NCBI RefSeq assembly: GCF_900128905.1
Contig: NZ_FQTV01000001.1
Location: forward strand, 248,001-312,000
Direction: 5' to 3'
Source of the DNA: Bacteroides luti
GTDB lineage: Bacteria; Bacteroidota; Bacteroidia; Bacteroidales; Bacteroidaceae
DNA length: 64,000 nucleotides
Below the pieces are notes generated by a model that was given only the letters and a program-made list of their open reading frames with translations, had not been told where the DNA came from and did no database searches. Both the position numbers and the translations under genes were made by a program. Shown piece by piece: positions 2,157-14,952 of the stretch; positions within the stretch are counted from its first letter, which is position 1, and each line of letters opens with the position of its first letter.

Positions 2157-4970
2157 ATGAAACACATATTTCGCCCATTCTTCCTATTTATTTGTTGTGA
2201 AGCTACCTTTTCTCCTGTCTTTGCCGAAGATTTTCCTTTAATAATGCAAGGCAAAACAAACACAGTCTATTTAAATAAAAGTGAAAAGCCGGTAGTACAA
2301 ACAGCTATGGATATGTTTTTATCGGATATGCAAGAGGTATCAGATAAGAAACCCGTAACTGGAAATTCACTTGATAATGCTTCAATAATTGTTGCAACAA
2401 TAGGAAAATCAATTGAAATAGATGAATGGCTGAAGAAACAAAATATTTCTACTGCAGATATTAAGAACAAGTGGGAAGCTTTCAAAATAGAAGTTCTTCA
2501 GAAGAATAATCGTTCTTGTCTTGTAGTATTGGGCAGTGATGAACGTGGAACTGCATACGGAATATTGGAACTCTCTCGCATTATAGGTGTTTCTCCATGG
2601 TGCTGGTGGGCTGATTCTGCACCTGCTAAGAAAAAAAGCCTTAGTCTTCCCGAAGGTTATGTGAATGTACAGCAACCATCTGTACAATTCAGGGGAATTT
2701 TCCTGAATGATGAAGATTGGGGATTAATGCCGTGGAGTAGCAAGAACTTTGAAGCAACCCCTGTCAAAGGTCAGATTGGCCCAAAAACCTACGCTAAAAT
2801 ATTTGAATTATTGTTGCGCCTTCGTGCAAATACCATCTGGCCTGCTATGCACGAATGTACTGTTCCGTTTTATTTTGTGAATGGCACAAAAGAAATGGCC
2901 GATAAATATGGAATTGTTATGGCAACTTCTCATTGCGAACCGTTAATGAGAAATAGTGCCGGAGAATGGGATTCTAAAAGATACGGTGAGTATAATTACC
3001 TCACTAATAAAGATTCTATTATTTCTTACTGGACAGAACGACTAAAAAAGGTTGGCCAGTCAGAGAACATCTATACGATTGGAATGAGAGGGGTTCACGA
3101 CGGTCAGATGCAGGGAGTAAAAACGCTGGATGAACATACCAAAGCTTTAAATCAGGTAATTCAGGATCAGAGAAATTTATTATCTCGCTACGTTAATGCC
3201 GATGTAACTAAAGTGCCTCAAGTATTTGTGCCATACAAAGAGGTATTAAGTGTATACGATAATGGATTACAAGTGCCGGATGATGTAACATTGATATGGT
3301 GCGACGATAACTATGGTTACATAACCCGACTTAGTAATGAGCAGGAAAGAAAGAGAAAAGGCGGATCTGGTGTTTATTATCATATTTCTTATTGGGGACG
3401 TCCGCACGATTATTTGTGGCTTTGTACTACTTCAACGGCTCAGATTTATACAGAAATGAAACGTGCCTGGGATTATGGCGCACAAAAACTATGGATTCTA
3501 AATGTAGGCGATATTAAACCGGGAGAATATGATATTGAATTCTTTATGGATTTGGCATGGAACATTAATAATGTTCATCCAAACAATATTTCCCAGCATT
3601 TAGAGAACTGGCTTACAAGAGAATTCGGTTCTGAAGCTGGAAGTGAACTGACTCCATTGATGGATAAATATTATCAGTTGGCTGATATTCGTAAACCGGA
3701 ACACATGGGCTGGAGCAGAGTGGAAGAACCATCCGTTCCAGGAAATAAAACTCCGGTAATTGATACGGAATTCAATCCGTTTGTTTTTGGTGATGAGTTA
3801 CAGAAACGTGCAAATGAATACTCTGTTCTGGCAAATAGAGTGAAAGAAATTGGTGAGAAGATCCCGGTTGAACAACGCGAAGCATATTTCGAACTTGTTC
3901 AATATCCCGTTTGTAGTGCTGCTGCTATGAATCATAAACTTTTGTATGCACAAAAAGCCCGCCTTTTTGCCCGCTATAAATTGCTTGCAGCTAATGAATA
4001 TGCTAACTTAAGCACCAAAGCGTTTAATGAGATTGCTCAAATGGCGCAGACTTACAATACGGATATTCAGGACGCTAAGTGGAACAGAATGATAGATATG
4101 AAGCCTCGTAATCTACCGGTTTTCCAACCTTCTGTATTACCTGATAAAATACTTTCCCAGTCATCTGCTCCGGCTTTGGTTTGGATAGAGGGCGACAGTA
4201 TCCCATTGGAAATGGAATGTCCGGTTAATCTTATTACTTTGGTACGTGGTGCGAATAATCAAACGTTTATATCGTTATTCAACAGAAATAATAAACCAAC
4301 TAAATGGAAGGTGGAAAAGGCTCCGAAATGGTTAAAGATTAAGGAGGTAGATACAACGCTAAAGTTTGAGAAAAAATTAGTAGTCAGTGCCGACTGGAAA
4401 CAAATTACTGATGATTTCCTAGGTATTTGCTTGTTGACTGTAGACGATAAAATGTACCAGTTAAACGTATGCACGCAGAATATAAATCCTGGCATACTGA
4501 CCGAAGCAAACGGAATGATTGCCTGTAATGCAGCAGATTATAAATCGGCATCAAAGGGAACTCAGATTATTCAGGGATTAGGTCACAGTGCTAAAGCTGT
4601 TTCTCTTCCACAGAATGGTGAAATTACTTATGATGTTTACACAACTTCTACCGGAGAAGTGTCTTTAAAAGTTGCATTAATACCCGGCCATCCGGTAAAT
4701 GGTGGTGATATTCGTTATGCTGTTTCCATAGACGATGAAAAGCCGCAGGTTGTTTCTTACAAAACCGGATTCCGCACAGAGCCTTGGAAAATAAATGTAC
4801 TGAGAAATCAATCGCTGAATACTACTCTTCATAAAATAAACATTCCGGGAAAGCACACCATTCGTATCAGTGCACTCGACCCGGAAGTTATTGTTGATCA
4901 GCTTATGCTTGATTTCCAGAAAGGAAGAAAGTTCTATCAGATTCCTGTTGAAGCAACAATGAATAAATAG
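2157..4970 (+). CDS. GH115 xylan alpha-1,2-glucuronidase
   Basis: This 937-residue exported glycoside hydrolase has a signal peptide at about residues 1-23 (cut near VFA-ED). The central GH115 region carries the family pattern RGIFLNDEDWGLMPW around 179-193 and RLRANTIWPAMHE at 221-233. The C-terminal ~160 residues are a beta-rich module like the GH115 C-terminal domain. Enzymes of this family remove (4-O-methyl)glucuronic acid from internal and terminal xylose residues of glucuronoxylan. The length is normal for a full member and nothing looks truncated. The signal is not a lipobox, so it is probably periplasmic. No SusC/SusD genes flank it, so it is not inside a visible polysaccharide utilisation locus. 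The released uronic acid could feed the kdgK/eda module at 15-17 kb after other steps. Confidence 0.9.
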   Translation: MKHIFRPFFLFICCEATFSPVFAEDFPLIMQGKTNTVYLNKSEKPVVQTAMDMFLSDMQEVSDKKPVTGNSLDNASIIVATIGKSIEIDEWLKKQNISTADIKNKWEAFKIEVLQKNNRSCLVVLGSDERGTAYGILELSRIIGVSPWCWWADSAPAKKKSLSLPEGYVNVQQPSVQFRGIFLNDEDWGLMPWSSKNFEATPVKGQIGPKTYAKIFELLLRLRANTIWPAMHECTVPFYFVNGTKEMADKYGIVMATSHCEPLMRNSAGEWDSKRYGEYNYLTNKDSIISYWTERLKKVGQSENIYTIGMRGVHDGQMQGVKTLDEHTKALNQVIQDQRNLLSRYVNADVTKVPQVFVPYKEVLSVYDNGLQVPDDVTLIWCDDNYGYITRLSNEQERKRKGGSGVYYHISYWGRPHDYLWLCTTSTAQIYTEMKRAWDYGAQKLWILNVGDIKPGEYDIEFFMDLAWNINNVHPNNISQHLENWLTREFGSEAGSELTPLMDKYYQLADIRKPEHMGWSRVEEPSVPGNKTPVIDTEFNPFVFGDELQKRANEYSVLANRVKEIGEKIPVEQREAYFELVQYPVCSAAAMNHKLLYAQKARLFARYKLLAANEYANLSTKAFNEIAQMAQTYNTDIQDAKWNRMIDMKPRNLPVFQPSVLPDKILSQSSAPALVWIEGDSIPLEMECPVNLITLVRGANNQTFISLFNRNNKPTKWKVEKAPKWLKIKEVDTTLKFEKKLVVSADWKQITDDFLGICLLTVDDKMYQLNVCTQNINPGILTEANGMIACNAADYKSASKGTQIIQGLGHSAKAVSLPQNGEITYDVYTTSTGEVSLKVALIPGHPVNGGDIRYAVSIDDEKPQVVSYKTGFRTEPWKINVLRNQSLNTTLHKINIPGKHTIRISALDPEVIVDQLMLDFQKGRKFYQIPVEATMNK

Positions 4971-5342: not shown

Positions 5343-6797
5343 TTATATTCCCAACGGAATATTGAGTAAATACCAAACGACGAAAAAGGCTGTCCAGAAT
5401 ACTAATATAGCAAGCGAATAGCGCCAGGTATATTTCAGTAAGGAACTGTAATTAGCCTGTTTATCGTATTGCTGCATATAAGCCAGAATTAAAGGCATAT
5501 AGAACAAGAACGGCGTAATTGCATTAGTGGCACTGTCTCCAATACGGAAAGCACACTGGGTTAAGTCGGGGTTTATTCCCATTGCGGCGAACATCGGAAC
5601 AAAGATGAAGGCCATAAAGGTCCACTTTGCCGTTGCAGAAACCATGATGAGGTTTATTACCGTTGTAAATAGAATAAATAACAGCAAAGTAACAAAGCTA
5701 TTTGTGTGAATTGATGTCAGAAGGTTTGCTCCCATAATAGCCAGACATTTGTCCAGACGGGAGTATTCGAAACAAGCAAACATCTGTGCCGCAAAAAAGG
5801 CAATAACAAAATACACCCCCAGCAACTGCATAGGGTGCGATAGTCCGGTTATTACGTCAGAATCTCTGCGGTAGCGTCCGGATGCAAAACCATAGATGGT
5901 TCCCATTAAGCCAATGCCAAAGGATATAAGGAATAATACTCCAAAAATAAATGGAGAGCGAGTTAAACTACCAGTTATCCCTCTCAAAATTCCCCACGGA
6001 GAAAAGGTTGCCAAAACAATGATCAGCGTATAAATAAATCCGGCTCCGAGAGATATTATTAATGCACGTTGCTCTTTTTTTGTGAGCGATTTATAATTAT
6101 CATAAGGTGCATGCCCAGTGTATTCGCCTAACTTTGGTAAAAGACTCTTTTTTGTAATAAAGTAAATTACTGCTGTAACAACAAACGTAGAGACAAACAT
6201 GAAATAGTAGTTCGACAGTGCACCTATGTTTCCTTGATAAGTAGTCATGTTTGCAGCTGCTTCTTGGGTTATTCGAGCCAGAATAGGATCGAGTGTACTA
6301 ACAAACAGATTTGCACTAAATCCGCATGCTACGGATACGTATGCGGTTACTATTCCTGCTACGGGATGTAGTTTGACCGACTGGAACAGTGTAGCAGCAA
6401 TTGGTATAAGAATTATATATCCTGCATCTCCCACAATATTTGAAATAACTCCAAGCAGGATTACGACTAGGATTACCCCCTCTTGACTGGGGTGTTTTCT
6501 CAAACTTCTTCTTATACAAGCTCCTATAAAACCTGAATGCTCTGCCACACCTACACCAAACATGGCCACCATTACCATACCCAAAGGAGCAAATCCGGTA
6601 AAGTTTGTCACCACATGACGCAGTAACCAGCGGATTCCTTCGGGACCTAAAAGACTTTGTGCGCGGATAACTTCACCCGTCTGAGGATTAATCACGCGAA
6701 GTCCGTAGATATCAAATATCCACGAAAGCATGACAACTGCTACGGTGAGCAGTAAAAACATGGTAGCCGGGTGAGGCATTCGCAATTTATTCTTCAT
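5343..6797 (-). CDS. AbgT-family transporter
   Basis: This polytopic inner-membrane transporter of about 484 residues resembles the AbgT family (p-aminobenzoyl-glutamate uptake, or drug/sulfonamide efflux in some members). Supporting features are the N-terminal PHPATMFLLL segment, a first periplasmic loop of the kind GLRVINPQTGEVIRAQSLL, the helix run with GVISNIVGDAGYIILIPIAA, and a C-terminal region with RIGDSATNAITPFLFYMPL. The frame opens six codons earlier at 6815, but the ATG at 6797 gives the usual N-terminus and an 11-base overlap with the response-regulator stop, which implies translational coupling. The substrate is unknown. Its place after a two-component regulator suggests that it is a regulated target. 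Confidence 0.85.
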   Translation of the reverse strand: MKNKLRMPHPATMFLLLTVAVVMLSWIFDIYGLRVINPQTGEVIRAQSLLGPEGIRWLLRHVVTNFTGFAPLGMVMVAMFGVGVAEHSGFIGACIRRSLRKHPSQEGVILVVILLGVISNIVGDAGYIILIPIAATLFQSVKLHPVAGIVTAYVSVACGFSANLFVSTLDPILARITQEAAANMTTYQGNIGALSNYYFMFVSTFVVTAVIYFITKKSLLPKLGEYTGHAPYDNYKSLTKKEQRALIISLGAGFIYTLIIVLATFSPWGILRGITGSLTRSPFIFGVLFLISFGIGLMGTIYGFASGRYRRDSDVITGLSHPMQLLGVYFVIAFFAAQMFACFEYSRLDKCLAIMGANLLTSIHTNSFVTLLLFILFTTVINLIMVSATAKWTFMAFIFVPMFAAMGINPDLTQCAFRIGDSATNAITPFLFYMPLILAYMQQYDKQANYSSLLKYTWRYSLAILVFWTAFFVVWYLLNIPLGI

Positions 6798-7515
6798 CTG
6801 CTTCAAGATTATCAAGATCTATGATACGAAGTTCAAGTGCACGAACCACCAAACGAGTGGCATTCACTCCTACCCGTTCACCGGGGCCAAACAGACGTGC
6901 AACCAAGTCATTTTGTCGTTTCTCCAAAGATTTTACTCCGAAAGGCATACCTTTCAGATTGGCAATCATATCTTTGGTATATCCTAAGGCAAGGTGGCGA
7001 AGGAAACGCTCATCATATTCGTCAATATCATAGTCTATTACAGCTTCCTGACGCAAAGCATCGTTGGTTACTGACTTCTTGAAACGATCTACAATCTTTT
7101 CCAGAATAGGATAATTGAAGACCAGTTTTTTTCCATCCATTACAGCCTGAACATCTGTCTTGGTAAGCAGTTCTCCTGTCTTCAGAATTATTCCGTCCGC
7201 TCCCGCATTAAGTACATCCACCCACAGTTTTTCGTTGAGCACTTCGCCTGTAAAAATCAAGACCCTTACATCTTTGTACTTTTTACGTAGGTTTTTGCAG
7301 ATATCTACACCAATGGTTGTTGAACCTCCTAACCCAAGATCGAGCAAAACCATGTCGGGCACCTGAACCTCTATCAGCGGCCAGAATTCTTTTTCGGTCA
7401 TCGCTGTACCAATTACTTCGGCATTGGGTATTTCGTGACGAAATATCTCTTCAGTTCCTTTAAGCTCCAGCTTTACATCTTCTACAATGATAACTTTAAA
7501 TTTCTTATCTTCCAT
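6787..7515 (-). CDS. Two-component response regulator with C-terminal HTH
   Basis: This 242-residue regulator has a receiver domain at residues 6-125, with acidic pocket Glu12/Asp13, predicted phospho-acceptor Asp59 (LLDLG), Thr89 (FTG) and Lys112 (LKTG). The C-terminal region ~165-232 looks like a divergent LuxR-type helix-turn-helix (ERFLRHLALGYTKDMIAN, then SLEKRQNDLVARLF). It lies directly downstream of the double sensor kinase, with a 120-base gap, and is coupled to the AbgT gene, so it is the obvious partner of the kinase. The gap contains a palindromic element that recurs upstream of copA. I recall a Bacteroides family with this architecture (DUF5932) but could not check it. Confidence 0.85.
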   Translation of the reverse strand: MEDKKFKVIIVEDVKLELKGTEEIFRHEIPNAEVIGTAMTEKEFWPLIEVQVPDMVLLDLGLGGSTTIGVDICKNLRKKYKDVRVLIFTGEVLNEKLWVDVLNAGADGIILKTGELLTKTDVQAVMDGKKLVFNYPILEKIVDRFKKSVTNDALRQEAVIDYDIDEYDERFLRHLALGYTKDMIANLKGMPFGVKSLEKRQNDLVARLFGPGERVGVNATRLVVRALELRIIDLDNLEADEE

Positions 7516-7635: not shown

Positions 7636-10600
7636 CTACTGCTTTTCTTTGTTTATTCCTTTTGTTTTAACTAAGCTTACTTTACGTTTTGGTATAGTAA
7701 AGTAGACGGTAAACCCTCCCTCCGGTGATGGCTCCGCATTTATTCTACAACCACGTAAACCTGCAAACTCGTCATGGTCGCGGATAATCTGTTTGCATAT
7801 CAAATATTCGGTTCCTTTTAGCGTACCATCCTCAGAAGCTGTCATGCGGGCCAAATCGGGATAAAAAAGCTGATTAAGTTCTTCTACAGTTTTCTCTCTT
7901 CTCCTGTCTGTAAACAAGAAACGAATATACTCACCATCTGCCTTGGCTTCAAGGATTACTTCTCCATCTTCAGGAACAGTAAGGCACTCCTCAATTAAGT
8001 TCTCTAACAGGAATTTTAATTGAATTACATCCCCGATAACCTTTTCACTACAGCTTTCTGCGTGGAAAGTTACGGAACTTTGCAGTCGTTTACTCATTTT
8101 CCGGAAATATTTCTGCGCATGTATTACCAATTCATCCACTTCTACATTTCCACGGCGGAATGTTACTTCCTCCAACTGCTTTGCAGCACAGGAACTTAGA
8201 ATATTAAATATACCTTTATAATAATCGATCAGTTCACTGATGGTTTGAATATTTTCTTTTTCCTCCTCAGGAGTAAATGATTTCTTAGCTAGCTTATCTA
8301 TTATATTCTTTATTTTGCTTGGGTAATAAATAGTTTCGTGTTTTATTGTAGAGAGGCAATTGTCGAGCACCATATTCTGCACGTGCAATAAGCTATCTTC
8401 CCACGAAGCCCTGTAAGTATCTTCTTCGGCCGATTCAATATCTCTGTACTTTGTAGCAAGTTTCACAACTGCATTAAACACTACAATTGCCACATAATTG
8501 GTTATCAATTCAATAAGCAAACGGTTGCTTTCGCGCTCTTCATCGTTTTGTCTGGAAAAGGCAAGGACGCCAACACAACGAGACGTCTCTCCTACTTCAA
8601 CCATCAACGGAAGTGCTTGCACATATATATCATACAGATTATTATCATAAAACGGTATTGACTGTAATTTCCCGGCAGCATATTGCTGCGAATCGAAGCA
8701 ACGTTGCATTACTTCGGTCAGTGTTTCATGCTCTCCCTGAATTTCAACAGAAGTATCATTCCACTCCATTTGATGCGGATAATAAGCAAATTCTAGTCTA
8801 TGACTATCTTCATTATAAACCCCGATACTCAGCATATCAATGGTAAGCAATTCGTTTATTCCGTCAAAGCAATTATCTACAATGCTACGGGGAATATCGT
8901 TGGACGTTAAGGTTGAATTCAGTACTTGTTTGTTAATCTCGAGCACTTGTTCAAGGTTCCATCTGTTTATTAATCGTTTACGGATAAAGAGCAGATAATA
9001 TCCTATAAAAAAGACAATCAGAATCAATATAAACAAAATAACTGCCACCACTTTATTGTTGGTGGAATGCTCCAGATTACGGCAATATTCCTCAAGAGAA
9101 TAATCCTCACTTACCAATTTATAAAGCCGTGAGTAAGCAGTATTGTTATATTGATAATTATCCCATTGCTTTAATGCCAGAAAAGCTACTGCGGCTTCGT
9201 TTCTAATATCCAGAATGACATAATAATCAGTATCGACCAGTCCGTTCCACCAATTAATTTCGGTAGAAATACCATTCCCCTTTAAGGTCATTACATTGCG
9301 TTTGTTTCGATAATTTTTTAAATAATGCTTGTTTAATCGGTCAATAGCAGAGTCGGCATACTGCAATGCAAGTGGATAGTTCTCTATTACATTGCAATAA
9401 TAAACGGTGTCTGCGAAAAGCGAAGCTTCATTCAGCAATTTGTCATAGGTTTTATCAGACGTTACTGAAGTAGAATCTGCCGGATGATATTCTTTAGTTA
9501 CAGGTCTTTCCAGTTTGCTGCAAGAGAAAAGTCCGGTAGTTATAAATAAGCAGAGTAATATATCCAGTGTTTTGCGAATACCTGTAGGCAAGCGGAAATA
9601 AAACTTGCTACCCTTACCCGGAGTACTCTCAATACTAAACATACAGACTTTGAAAAGATCGTTTGTCTTACGATATTTTTCAATAATACCTTTGCAATTC
9701 ATCAATCCAAATCCGTGGCCTTTATTCTTCAGAAGTTCCTCCTTGTCGGTCGATTCCATTCCTATCTGACTTGAGTCGTAGACCTTTTCACCCAATATTC
9801 GCGCAACATCTTCCTGAGATATTCCCCGACCGGTATCTGAAACCGAGATTTCCACGTAATCATCTTCCGTTTTAGCGCTAACCTGAATAGTTCCACCTTC
9901 AGGAGTATATTTCCTTGCGTTTTCAGTAAGAGTATTAATCATGAACATTGTCAGGGCCTTATCTGCTTTAACAATAGCCTTTGTAGGTTCTACTTTGAAA
10001 GCTTGATGCTTCATTTCAAAGGTTTTTCTACCTTTAGCCAATACATCGAAAAGTTCATTCAATTCAAAGTTCTCGATATTCAGGTTTAATGAACCTTGCT
10101 TCATCTTGATCCAAAGCGCCAGAATATCATTGTACTCATTAATCTTGGAAACTAACTCGTCAATATACTGATATTTCTCGAGCTTAATAGCTTCGTCCTG
10201 TATATAACCTTTGGAAGTAAGCTTATGCACTTCGTTAATGATGCGGTCCATAAACGGAGTAATACCATAAACAATAGCCATACATGACTTCTTAATCAGA
10301 TTCTGACGTTTATTATCGGCAATATGCTGTTCATATACATAGCGTTGTTTCTCAAGTTTAATTCTCTCATCACCCAGCGAAATAAATGTAAGTCCGTTGC
10401 CAAGAGTCCAGGCAATATAAGGTGTGATAACATTCATCAGAGCTTTTTCGTCCTTGGTAATTTTGTGACGGGTATAAAGCTCAATAACTCCAATCGGAGT
10501 CTCTTCTTTTGGCAAAAAGAGGTTGAATGAAGATTTTATCAAATCATTTTCAATTAGTTCATCCTCAATAATATCTTCATCAATAGACGGATAAATAAAT

Positions 10601-12213
10601 TCTTCAGACTCTGGATCGAATATGCCAATACGTAATGAATAAGCATGAAAAAGCTTTTTTAAATCGGCCTGAATAGCTGTACCAACGGCTGAAACTATTT
10701 CGTCTGTACTTCCTATATCTATAGGAATAGAAGCAGTTATGCGCTGGCATACCTCGAGTGTGTTTCTTAATCTCTCAGAATGCTTTCTATTACGTGTTTT
10801 TGAACGTGAATTCAGTACCCAGAAAAGGAAAATCAATAAAACGAAACCACTAAAGACAAATAGAGAAAGGATATTCAATTGTCTGTCTTCTTTTTCCAGT
10901 TCCTGCGAACGGCTTTCCAGCTCTTTATCCTGACGAGTATAATCAAGAATATCAAGATAAATATTTCGGTTATAGTTTGAAGGAACTTTCATTCCCAATC
11001 CGGCATAAGTTACGCTTAACTGTTCCCGGATACGGGCAATCCATTCGGGCACAGTCTTAACGTTATTCTTCGAAATCCAGCTAAGTTCTGTATAAATTGT
11101 ATCTTGTTCGGAGAAAGGTTTTAGCTGGTCGACTGTGCTTTTTCCGTTTTTATAGTAAAGCTTATGGTGTTTATTTACACAATCCAGCGCTTTACTTAAA
11201 GTATCCAGCGCCACACTATAACGACCATGCATATTATAATAACGTCCGATGGTTACGTATGCTCCGGCAATCTGGTAAATATCCTTATACTTCTTAAACT
11301 TTTCGAGAGCAACTCGTGCCAGGTTTAACGGCAAAATGGTATCGCTTTCTGCAACTTCATTTTTCGTAAAGTGATAATACGAATTTAAGGTTTGAATAGC
11401 CTTAGGGCGTTCATGATAAATAAGATTAAAGATATCTTTGTTTTCAAATAAAGACGAGATTCCCTGCAGGCTGTTCGCTTCAAAATAAATATATTGATTG
11501 CGACTCATATTCCAGCACTTGAAGAGTTCATCAAATTCTGTAATATTATTCTGCTCAGCATCCTTCTTTTCAAACAATTCTGCAGAACCTTTTATATAAT
11601 CATAGTAAAGAATTTGTGCCGTATCAGAGGCCAGGTCTGAATCCTGAACCTGATTAATAGATTGAATAGCTTCGCTTTGCTGCTGCAAATAAAAATAGTA
11701 GATTGACGATACAATGAAAAATTCAGAACGGGCATAATTCAAACGTTTCTTATCGTGTACATCAACAAATACAGACTGATCTTCATCAATACGTTTCATT
11801 CTCCTAACCGCACTGTTTCGACAGTCATAATATTCCTTATTCATGGATGTCCGTTGGTATATTTTCATTAGTCCTATATCGGCAATAACTAATTCCAGCT
11901 CATTCTGGGTTAATCTATATACCTTCTTATAATAGTTCTCTGCCGCATCAAAATCCATCCGCATGAAAGCACAAAATCCCAGATTATTGTAAGCTTCAGC
12001 TTTACCCTGATCGTATTCGTCTGCATAATTTATTGCCAGAAGAGCCTCTTTATAAGATGAATCAAGTTGCTTATAACGCAAATCGTAGGAACGTTGGTTA
12101 AGAGAATCCAGTAAACGGACTTCCTGTGCAGAAGGTGTTCCCGTGCAAGAAAAGAATACTGAAAGCGCCAGTATTACCGTTAGGAAGTAAAGTATATTAC
12201 GGAGTTTATTCAT
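7636..12213 (-). CDS. Double membrane sensor histidine kinase (two fused kinase-like halves)
   Basis: This 1525-residue protein looks like two kinase-like proteins joined end to end. Half 1 has a lipobox-like signal (Cys23), a TPR-like helical sensor region (~40-430), a TM segment at ~446-467, a GAF-like region (~490-615), a DHp-like region (~630-720) and a well-formed HATPase domain, with N-box Asn760/Asn765, G1 DTGRGI (793-798) and G2 GHGFGL (832-837). Half 2 begins with a second hydrophobic segment and lipobox-like LFSC (Cys898), then a TPR-like region, a TM segment at ~1054-1076, a GAF-like region (~1100-1250), a DHp-like helix with His1292 (KHETIYYPSK), and an ATPase-like fold without recognisable G1 or G2 boxes. 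Half 1 has ITPF where HELRTPL-type motifs occur and no His at the expected place. The partner is the adjacent response regulator. I recall DUF5112/DUF5113 labels for such proteins, unverified. Confidence 0.85.
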   Translation of the reverse strand: MNKLRNILYFLTVILALSVFFSCTGTPSAQEVRLLDSLNQRSYDLRYKQLDSSYKEALLAINYADEYDQGKAEAYNNLGFCAFMRMDFDAAENYYKKVYRLTQNELELVIADIGLMKIYQRTSMNKEYYDCRNSAVRRMKRIDEDQSVFVDVHDKKRLNYARSEFFIVSSIYYFYLQQQSEAIQSINQVQDSDLASDTAQILYYDYIKGSAELFEKKDAEQNNITEFDELFKCWNMSRNQYIYFEANSLQGISSLFENKDIFNLIYHERPKAIQTLNSYYHFTKNEVAESDTILPLNLARVALEKFKKYKDIYQIAGAYVTIGRYYNMHGRYSVALDTLSKALDCVNKHHKLYYKNGKSTVDQLKPFSEQDTIYTELSWISKNNVKTVPEWIARIREQLSVTYAGLGMKVPSNYNRNIYLDILDYTRQDKELESRSQELEKEDRQLNILSLFVFSGFVLLIFLFWVLNSRSKTRNRKHSERLRNTLEVCQRITASIPIDIGSTDEIVSAVGTAIQADLKKLFHAYSLRIGIFDPESEEFIYPSIDEDIIEDELIENDLIKSSFNLFLPKEETPIGVIELYTRHKITKDEKALMNVITPYIAWTLGNGLTFISLGDERIKLEKQRYVYEQHIADNKRQNLIKKSCMAIVYGITPFMDRIINEVHKLTSKGYIQDEAIKLEKYQYIDELVSKINEYNDILALWIKMKQGSLNLNIENFELNELFDVLAKGRKTFEMKHQAFKVEPTKAIVKADKALTMFMINTLTENARKYTPEGGTIQVSAKTEDDYVEISVSDTGRGISQEDVARILGEKVYDSSQIGMESTDKEELLKNKGHGFGLMNCKGIIEKYRKTNDLFKVCMFSIESTPGKGSKFYFRLPTGIRKTLDILLCLFITTGLFSCSKLERPVTKEYHPADSTSVTSDKTYDKLLNEASLFADTVYYCNVIENYPLALQYADSAIDRLNKHYLKNYRNKRNVMTLKGNGISTEINWWNGLVDTDYYVILDIRNEAAVAFLALKQWDNYQYNNTAYSRLYKLVSEDYSLEEYCRNLEHSTNNKVVAVILFILILIVFFIGYYLLFIRKRLINRWNLEQVLEINKQVLNSTLTSNDIPRSIVDNCFDGINELLTIDMLSIGVYNEDSHRLEFAYYPHQMEWNDTSVEIQGEHETLTEVMQRCFDSQQYAAGKLQSIPFYDNNLYDIYVQALPLMVEVGETSRCVGVLAFSRQNDEERESNRLLIELITNYVAIVVFNAVVKLATKYRDIESAEEDTYRASWEDSLLHVQNMVLDNCLSTIKHETIYYPSKIKNIIDKLAKKSFTPEEEKENIQTISELIDYYKGIFNILSSCAAKQLEEVTFRRGNVEVDELVIHAQKYFRKMSKRLQSSVTFHAESCSEKVIGDVIQLKFLLENLIEECLTVPEDGEVILEAKADGEYIRFLFTDRRREKTVEELNQLFYPDLARMTASEDGTLKGTEYLICKQIIRDHDEFAGLRGCRINAEPSPEGGFTVYFTIPKRKVSLVKTKGINKEKQ

Positions 12214-13663: not shown

Positions 13664-14437
13664 ATGGACATTCATGCAGAACTTAAAGAGTTATCGAAGT
13701 TTTTATCCGACTACTCTACCAGTCTAATGGCTGTAGGCGTACACACATCGCGTATTGTACGTAACACCTCTCGAATAGCTGAGTCTTTTGGCTATTTCGT
13801 TGACATGACGATCTTTCAGAAAACCATTATTATGACTTTGAGAGACAAAGACAATTCACATTCTTACAGCACTGTGAATAAAATCAAGCCAATGGCCTTG
13901 AACTTTGAATTAAATGCCCGACTCAGCACATTAAGCTGGGAAGCTTATGATGAGCATTTGTCTATGGATGAATTGAAAGCAAGATATAAGGAAATTATCA
14001 GTAACCCTCGAATGAGTAAATGGATGGTTCTTTTCCTGGTTGCATGTGCAAATGCATCTTTTTGCCGTCTCTTTACAGGTGATATACAAGCGATGGGTAT
14101 AGTTTTCGTTGCAACACTGGCAGGTTTCTTTATTCGTCAGAAATTAACAGAAATGCATCTCAACCATTTATTTGTATTCATTGTTTCTGCGTTTACCGCT
14201 TCCATGATAGGTTGTACAGCCGTGCTATACAATATAGGAAATACTCCTGATATTGCTCTTGGAACAAGTGTTCTTTATCTCGTTCCAGGTGTACCTCTCA
14301 TTAATGGTGTTATTGATGTTATTGAAGGCCATGTTTTAGCTGGCGTTTCACGATTAATTAACGCAGCATTACTTATTATTTGCCTTTCTATAGGTTTGTC
14401 ATTAACTTTATTATTGTTAGGAGTAAATGCATTATGA
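13664..14437 (+). CDS. ThrE-type threonine/serine exporter, N-terminal-domain subunit
   Basis: This 257-residue protein corresponds to the N-terminal half of actinobacterial ThrE (PF06738/DUF1212 type). A cytosolic segment of ~110 residues carries the family pattern LMAVGVHTSRIVRNTSRIA (20-38) and is followed by four or five TM helices, including YLVPGVPLINGVIDVIEGH (~205-223). ThrE exports threonine and serine using the proton gradient. Here the transporter is split into two genes, and the downstream subunit overlaps by four bases (ATGA), so both chains are probably made together in equal amounts. Function by family only; the true substrate may differ. Confidence 0.85.
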   Translation: MDIHAELKELSKFLSDYSTSLMAVGVHTSRIVRNTSRIAESFGYFVDMTIFQKTIIMTLRDKDNSHSYSTVNKIKPMALNFELNARLSTLSWEAYDEHLSMDELKARYKEIISNPRMSKWMVLFLVACANASFCRLFTGDIQAMGIVFVATLAGFFIRQKLTEMHLNHLFVFIVSAFTASMIGCTAVLYNIGNTPDIALGTSVLYLVPGVPLINGVIDVIEGHVLAGVSRLINAALLIICLSIGLSLTLLLLGVNAL

Positions 14438-14952
14438 TAAATTATGATTTTATTGAAGCCATTATATTTGATGGTTTTTTTGCAGCAATTGCATCTATTG
14501 GATTTGCAGTAATCTCTAATCCTCCACGCAAAGCTATTCTTGTTTCTGCATTTTTAGCAGCTGTTGGGCACGGACTTCGTTATTGTTTGTTGCATAGTAC
14601 TTCCTTGGATATTGCTTCGGCATCATTTCTTGCAGCATTTTCTATTGGTATGCTAAGCATTTTCTTTGCAAAGAAAATTCATTGTCCGGCAGAAGTATTC
14701 TCTTTCCCTTCTTTATTACCTATGATCCCAGGAATGTTTGCATATAAAACAATTCTTGCCTTAGTGAAATTTATTCAATGCAAAGATGATTCGGCATCAG
14801 TGGATATAATAGTAGCAATATTCAGAAATGGTTTAACTGCTACTTTTGTTATGTTTGCTTTGGTGGTTGGTGTTGCAGTACCTATGTTTATCTTCCACAA
14901 ACAATCATTTGCTGTAACACGTATTTTGAAGTTAGTTAAGAAAGATAGATAA
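14434..14952 (+). CDS. ThrE-type exporter, C-terminal-domain subunit
   Basis: This membrane protein of about 172 residues with five TM helices matches the C-terminal half of ThrE (ThrE_2/DUF3815 type), including SFPSLLPMIPGMFAYKTI (~89-106). The frame opens at 14380, but the ATG at 14434 overlaps the stop of the preceding subunit as ATGA and gives the normal N-terminus, so it is the likely start. It should act only together with the upstream subunit in the inner membrane. Confidence 0.85.
   Translation: MINYDFIEAIIFDGFFAAIASIGFAVISNPPRKAILVSAFLAAVGHGLRYCLLHSTSLDIASASFLAAFSIGMLSIFFAKKIHCPAEVFSFPSLLPMIPGMFAYKTILALVKFIQCKDDSASVDIIVAIFRNGLTATFVMFALVVGVAVPMFIFHKQSFAVTRILKLVKKDR

Follow-up and report, generated by a model that had tools for sequence, protein, structure and literature searches.

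The open reading frame (ORF) described here lies on the reverse strand at positions 7636-12213 of a 64,000-nucleotide window of the Bacteroides luti genome (contig NZ_FQTV01000001.1), the window being the whole stretch of DNA that was analyzed. It is a single ORF with an ATG start and encodes a protein of 1525 amino acids (aa) with two halves related to sensor histidine kinases; coordinates are positions within the window and residues are numbered on the 1525-aa protein. Matches above the curated Pfam cut-offs were to DUF5112, to DUF5113 in two stretches, of which the half-1 match spanned residues 309-470 and the second fell in half 2, and to HATPase_c (Table 1). The DUF5112 region would be exposed to the periplasm. 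The motifs quoted in a first-pass annotation made from the sequence alone were present at their residues, namely VYGITPF from Val648, N765, DTGRG and KGHGFG in half 1 and KHETIYYP with His1292, TDRRRE and GTEYLICKQ in half 2, as were the lipobox-like signals reported to open each half (Cys23 and Cys898). No CheA-type domains were found by Pfam in the protein, and in the structure model His1292 was located in a dimerization and histidine phosphotransfer (DHp) helix, not in a P1 domain.

Table 1. Positions of the double kinase, its domains and the adjoining genes on the window (residues refer to the 1525-aa protein)
Feature	Position	Strand	Remarks
Whole ORF, two kinase halves in one frame	7636..12213	-	1525 aa; single ORF in 130/130 homologues
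Half-1 lipoprotein-type signal peptide, residues 1-22, lipobox Cys23	12148..12213	-	Cys23 in 121/130
DUF5112, tetratricopeptide repeat (TPR)-containing, predicted periplasmic, residues 36-307	11293..12108	-	Pfam E 1.3e-88
DUF5113, first copy, residues 309-445	10879..11289	-	Pfam E 3.3e-100 for protein
Half-1 transmembrane helix, residues 446-470	10804..10878	-	hydrophobic core median 20 aa in homologues
Half-1 dimerization helix without phospho-acceptor His, residues 624-668	10210..10344	-	hhalign; position 649 faces His1292
Half-1 catalytic ATP-binding domain, residues 710-878	9580..10086	-	N765, DTGRG 793-797, KGHGFG 831-836
Junction internal signal peptide, residues 879-897, and lipobox Cys898	9520..9579	-	predicted cleavage before Cys898
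DUF5113, second copy, predicted periplasmic, residues 922-1045	9079..9450	-	Pfam; hhalign to first copy, probability 99.0
Half-2 transmembrane helix, residues 1048-1074	8992..9072	-	hydrophobic core median 20 aa
Half-2 cytoplasmic alpha/beta domain, residues 1085-1255	8449..8961	-	low-confidence model
Half-2 dimerization helix, His1292 in KHETxYYP, residues 1270-1312	8278..8406	-	His codon 8338-8340
Half-2 degenerate catalytic domain without N, G1, G2, residues 1355-1511	7681..8151	-	structure match to PrrB; motif loss
Response regulator, receiver and DUF5932 output, Asp59	6787..7515	-	Pfam
AbgT-family transporter	5343..6815	-	Pfam E 8e-134; TTG start as listed

Profile comparison with hhalign identified the kinase cores of the two halves as homologous over their whole length (probability 99.3, E-value 7e-21; probability 98.9 when repeated with another alignment), and the periplasmic DUF5113 parts were likewise homologous (probability 99.0, E-value 3.5e-18). 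By these comparisons the ORF consists of a single sensor-kinase unit duplicated in tandem. The alignment placed Tyr649 of half 1 opposite His1292 of half 2.

Conservation was counted in 130 homologues fetched from many genera, all of them single ORFs of 978-1529 aa. Residues K1291, H1292, E1293 and P1298 were each invariant in 130/130, as were N765, D793, G795, G797, G834, G836 and N839 of half 1, while position 649 was occupied by N (40), T (40), Y (20), A (8), H (4) or other residues and the half-2 residue opposite N765 was usually Glu, Ala or others. An invariant His1292 and invariant half-1 ATP residues in 130 proteins, together with a varied position 649, indicate that this pattern did not arise by chance. 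The proposal that half 1 keeps a complete ATP site and has no phospho-acceptor His was therefore borne out, with the key residues of the N, G1 and G2 boxes present in 130/130 and position 649 drifted. In the homologue alignment there was no conserved His in half 1 and no intact G box in half 2, and His1292 was conserved. Mean pairwise identity in the first DHp helix was 0.62 for half 2 (DHp2) versus 0.47 for half 1 (DHp1), and in the catalytic (CA) domains it was 0.60 for half 1 (CA1) versus 0.37 for half 2 (CA2). HATPase_c was recognized in 50/50 of the half-1 cores tested versus 33/50 of the half-2 cores, and the half-2 C-terminal domain of the window protein itself still matched HATPase_c (E-value 9e-8), so that CA2 is a degenerate ATPase fold rather than a missing one. 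The earlier description of half 2 was thus correct in that His1292 is kept and the N, G1 and G2 boxes are gone, and needs amendment in that the fold is degenerate yet recognizable.

A structure model of half 2 was built from three sequences, with a mean predicted local distance difference test (pLDDT) score of 51.6, and, given this low confidence, served only to read the order of elements and to compare folds. His1292 was located in a long helix that was followed by a second helix and then by the strands and helices in catalytic-domain order. The C-terminal part matched the ATP-binding domain of PrrB (Z 13.5, root-mean-square deviation 2.3 over 117 residues), and the whole half-2 model matched full histidine kinases, with DivL (PDB 4q20) among the matches. 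The preceding alpha/beta domain (residues 1085-1255) is possibly GAF/PAS-like in the model. Residues 1473-1491 (CKQIIRDHDEFAGLRGCRI), which are common to the un-duplicated kinase described below, were strongly conserved within the degenerate domain, including His1480 in 123/130 homologues.

An un-duplicated kinase of 710 aa was present in one genus of another Bacteroidales family (L233 and L234) and was located only by means of the half-2 kinase profile together with its DUF5932 regulator. Its signal peptide is of the lipobox type, a His occurs within CLSIFRHDMSPY, the N, G1 and G2 boxes are all complete, and its periplasmic region was related to DUF5112/5113 (probability 97.4). The core matched half 1 (probability 99.6) and the half-2 catalytic domain (probability 99.3), and the C-terminus KKHDDETRRGCKIW resembles REHDExxGxRGCRI of half 2. 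The gene after this kinase overlaps it by 16 bases and encodes a regulator with a DUF5932-type output above the Pfam cut-off. Because the un-duplicated relative carries both the His and a complete ATP site, the simplest history would be that one complete kinase was duplicated and that each copy then lost what the other kept. Events would have run in this direction, the reverse history being much less likely.

The response regulator that had been noted at 6787-7515 adjoins the kinase on the same strand, beginning 120 bases downstream of the kinase ORF. A DUF5932 regulator was the next gene in 128/130 loci, with one exception located at a contig end, and among these regulators T89 and K112 were present in 128/128 and E12, D13 and D59 in 127/128 (one row gapped). 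Seven genomes of the family without a full-length kinase match were also without the DUF5932 regulator, a joint absence that is expected of a functional pair. Of the components of a sensor histidine kinase, the DHp His was found in half 2 only and the N, G1 and G2 boxes in half 1 only, with the regulator adjacent. A division of labor between the halves is well supported by the complementary conservation, by the un-duplicated relative with both functions and by the constant pairing with the regulator.

Every homologue had a basic stretch, a hydrophobic core and a cleavage-type motif at the junction between the halves, as judged by eye or by rule. By the rules, the motif was a lipobox Cys in 70/130, a strict A-x-A-like site in 34-35, a looser one in 23-24 and none in 2. 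The median hydrophobic core was 13 aa at the junction versus 20 aa in the true membrane helices of the same proteins. Internal in-to-out membrane segments from 464 kb of this genome were used as the control, 19 being called and 17 retained. A lipobox was found in 0/17 control segments versus 70/130 junctions (Fisher p 8e-6), and a strong cleavage motif in 5/17 versus 119/130 (p 4e-8). The type of site, lipobox or A-x-A, switched 12 times on the tree, or 9 times without long branches; the count was 15 prior to the correction of four labels by eye and the omission of one row. Exchanging one cleavage system for the other yet staying cleavable is the trace expected if cutting is selected for. The linker after the site measured 39.5 residues in lipobox forms versus 25, as in lipoproteins, with relatedness as a confounder. 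Since the junction keeps signal-peptide features in nearly all homologues through about 12 switches, the chain is probably cut there into two subunits. The first-pass annotation had placed the division of labor within one chain; the split of labor is well supported, and the single chain is made doubtful by the signal-peptide-like junction at residues 879-898. In four members of one genus (L088-L090 and L141) an A-x-A-type site without a lipobox was present at both the N-terminal and the internal signal peptide, which look as if they had switched together.

We consider it fairly likely that the product of the ORF is a polyprotein giving rise to a split sensor histidine kinase, whose halves would be cut apart and form a heterodimer in which half 1 phosphorylates His1292. 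It seems a little likelier to be right than wrong that signal peptidase releases two incomplete subunits which assemble as 1:1 heterodimers, with ATP use confined to one subunit and phosphate acceptance to the other. A lipoprotein-type sensor kinase with complete parts would have been duplicated in tandem, fused and subfunctionalized, with the ATPase retained by half 1 and the phospho-acceptor His by half 2. Insertion of the nascent chain would involve two signal peptides together with two membrane helices, the internal signal peptide (residues 879-897) leading the chain outwards during insertion, and signal peptidase, of the lipoprotein type here and of type I in other lineages, would cut before Cys898 to leave two membrane sensors at a 1:1 ratio. 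The two halves would then form a heterodimer through their DHp helices, CA1 would phosphorylate His1292 of half 2, and the phosphoryl group would move from His1292 to Asp59 of the adjacent DUF5932 regulator. The sequences themselves show the duplication, the complementary loss and conservation, the pairing with the regulator and the signal-peptide character of the junction, whereas the cut, the heterodimer, the phosphotransfer and their direction are inferred.

Several points weigh against this reading. Signal peptides were called by home-made rules and not by SignalP, two homologues (L085 and L087) failed the junction motif rules, and the control set was small (17) and cleaned by hand, two evident mis-started signal peptides having been removed. 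A His occurs at position 649 in 4/130 homologues, and the 938-aa model of both halves from a three-row alignment (pLDDT 42.6) was too poor for judging DHp1-DHp2 pairing. CA2 was under purifying selection, with a median ratio of nonsynonymous to synonymous substitution rates (dN/dS) of about 0.09 from few usable pairs, and therefore keeps some non-ATP role that goes beyond the proposed account. Only about six residues separate the end of CA1 from the junction segment, and after cutting CA1 would therefore be held at the membrane, tethered by the signal-peptide remnant unless this is removed; site-2 proteases have been reported to clear remnant signal peptides (PMC9044953).

The evidence for a division of labor also speaks for an uncut polypeptide, fused as the ORF is in all 130 homologues, in which half 1 would phosphorylate His1292 and residues 879-898 would be an ordinary membrane helix. 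We regard this as unlikely, as an ordinary membrane helix would need a longer core than the one at the junction (13 aa versus 20 aa) and a lipobox or A-x-A site was kept through about 12 switches, which is not required of an uncut helix. Production of half 2 from an additional, internal start codon, with the junction as the N-terminal signal peptide of the second product, is suggested by a TTG at residue 875 of the window sequence that could begin a well-formed signal peptide. This start-codon position was not conserved, no conserved internal start codon was found around the junction among the homologues and twelve of them lack any ATG, GTG or TTG codon across 871-887, leaving such a second product very little credibility.

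Two other alternatives concern the flow of phosphate. Half 2 may be a phosphotransferase or phosphatase like Spo0B, ChpT or PhyT that is fed by another kinase or regulator, with half 1 only modulating it; such proteins likewise carry a DHp His ahead of a degenerate catalytic domain (PMC5898713), and the half-2 fold does match histidine kinases. We judge this improbable, since half 1, though always encoded in the same chain, would have an invariant ATP site without a substrate, and the un-duplicated relative is a complete kinase beside the same type of regulator. Slightly less plausible again is that half 1 phosphorylates another residue or protein and that the halves are separate homodimers with separate outputs: half 1 has no other conserved kinase-type acceptor His and there is a single adjacent regulator, which co-occurs with the fused gene, even if the halves could part after cleavage and the half-1 DHp keeps other conserved residues (R657 and E661).

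Split kinases are known from CheA3/CheA4 of Rhodobacter sphaeroides and have been predicted elsewhere (PMC3591291). The likeness is that the ATPase and the phospho-acceptor His are on different polypeptide parts, neither of which would work alone, with one regulator, and the two halves do follow this principle of kinase and acceptor modules on different, individually incomplete parts. CheA3/CheA4 differ in being encoded by two genes with a P1 domain and CheA architecture in a soluble chemotaxis cluster, whereas here one ORF with an internal signal peptide encodes two membrane sensors whose DHp helices are HisKA-like. Some kinases with a degenerate ATPase domain are also known to work as phosphotransferases (PMC5898713), and half 2 resembles Spo0B, ChpT and PhyT in its DHp with a His followed by a degenerate ATPase domain. 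In those proteins the phosphoryl group comes from a receiver domain, whereas here half 2 probably receives it from the ATPase of half 1. In DivL a Tyr replaces the His and the protein acts as a regulator of another kinase; half 1 is similar to such pseudokinases in having the histidine-kinase fold minus a key residue, and differs in that it probably still phosphorylates its partner.

With regard to the cut, signal peptidase has been reported to cleave RsiV behind its cytoplasmic domain (PMC9044953), which is comparable in that the cut follows an in-to-out membrane segment after a cytoplasmic domain. For RsiV this is a ligand-triggered destruction, whereas the double kinase, if cut, would undergo constitutive maturation into two kinase subunits. 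The FbcH cytochrome b/c1 precursor of Bradyrhizobium is one ORF with an internal signal peptide that yields two mature membrane proteins, which belong to a respiratory complex and not to signaling. The literature searched gave no description of a sensor kinase as a polyprotein cut by signal peptidase, nor any paper naming DUF5112 or DUF5113 or any on Bacteroides double kinases or on FbcH. To our knowledge no described sensor kinase matures through internal signal-peptide cleavage.

A heterodimer of the two halves, if it forms, would be a natural and family-wide case of enforced asymmetry, each pair having a single ATP site and a single His, and questions of cis/trans and half-of-sites action in kinase dimers would therefore be directly testable. 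The subfunctionalization of a kinase is documented here with an un-duplicated relative still at hand to compare. Should the internal signal peptide be cut, the ORF would encode a rare bacterial polyprotein giving a fixed 1:1 membrane sensor pair from one gene, and an internal signal peptide would have been retained in most of a major family of gut bacteria.

The protein was present in 314/399 sampled genomes of the Bacteroidaceae, the family of the window, and a protein search of the evenly sampled order gave no match outside this family. A DUF5113 match in one genome (G905) was an unrelated TPR protein and was rejected as a family member. No split-gene versions were found among the homologues, and an apparent case (G758) was consistent with a contig break. 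Shortened members of 978-1182 aa, among them L123 (978 aa), L124 and L126, retain KHETMYYP in a reduced half 2. In these three and in L127, L131 and L132 the trimming affects the segment ahead of DHp2 and portions of CA2, and KHETxYYP remains.

The AbgT transporter ORF comes after the regulator and overlaps its 3' end by 29 bases. A similar protein was encoded in 63/130 fetched loci, many of which were too short to tell, and the transporter may therefore be co-regulated, making it a possible target or operon partner. Near the transporter gene on the opposite strand a glycoside hydrolase family 115 protein was identified by Pfam (2157-4970). At 13664-14952 are two adjacent overlapping ORFs, the first encoding ThrE (a threonine/serine exporter) and the second what looks like its partner half.

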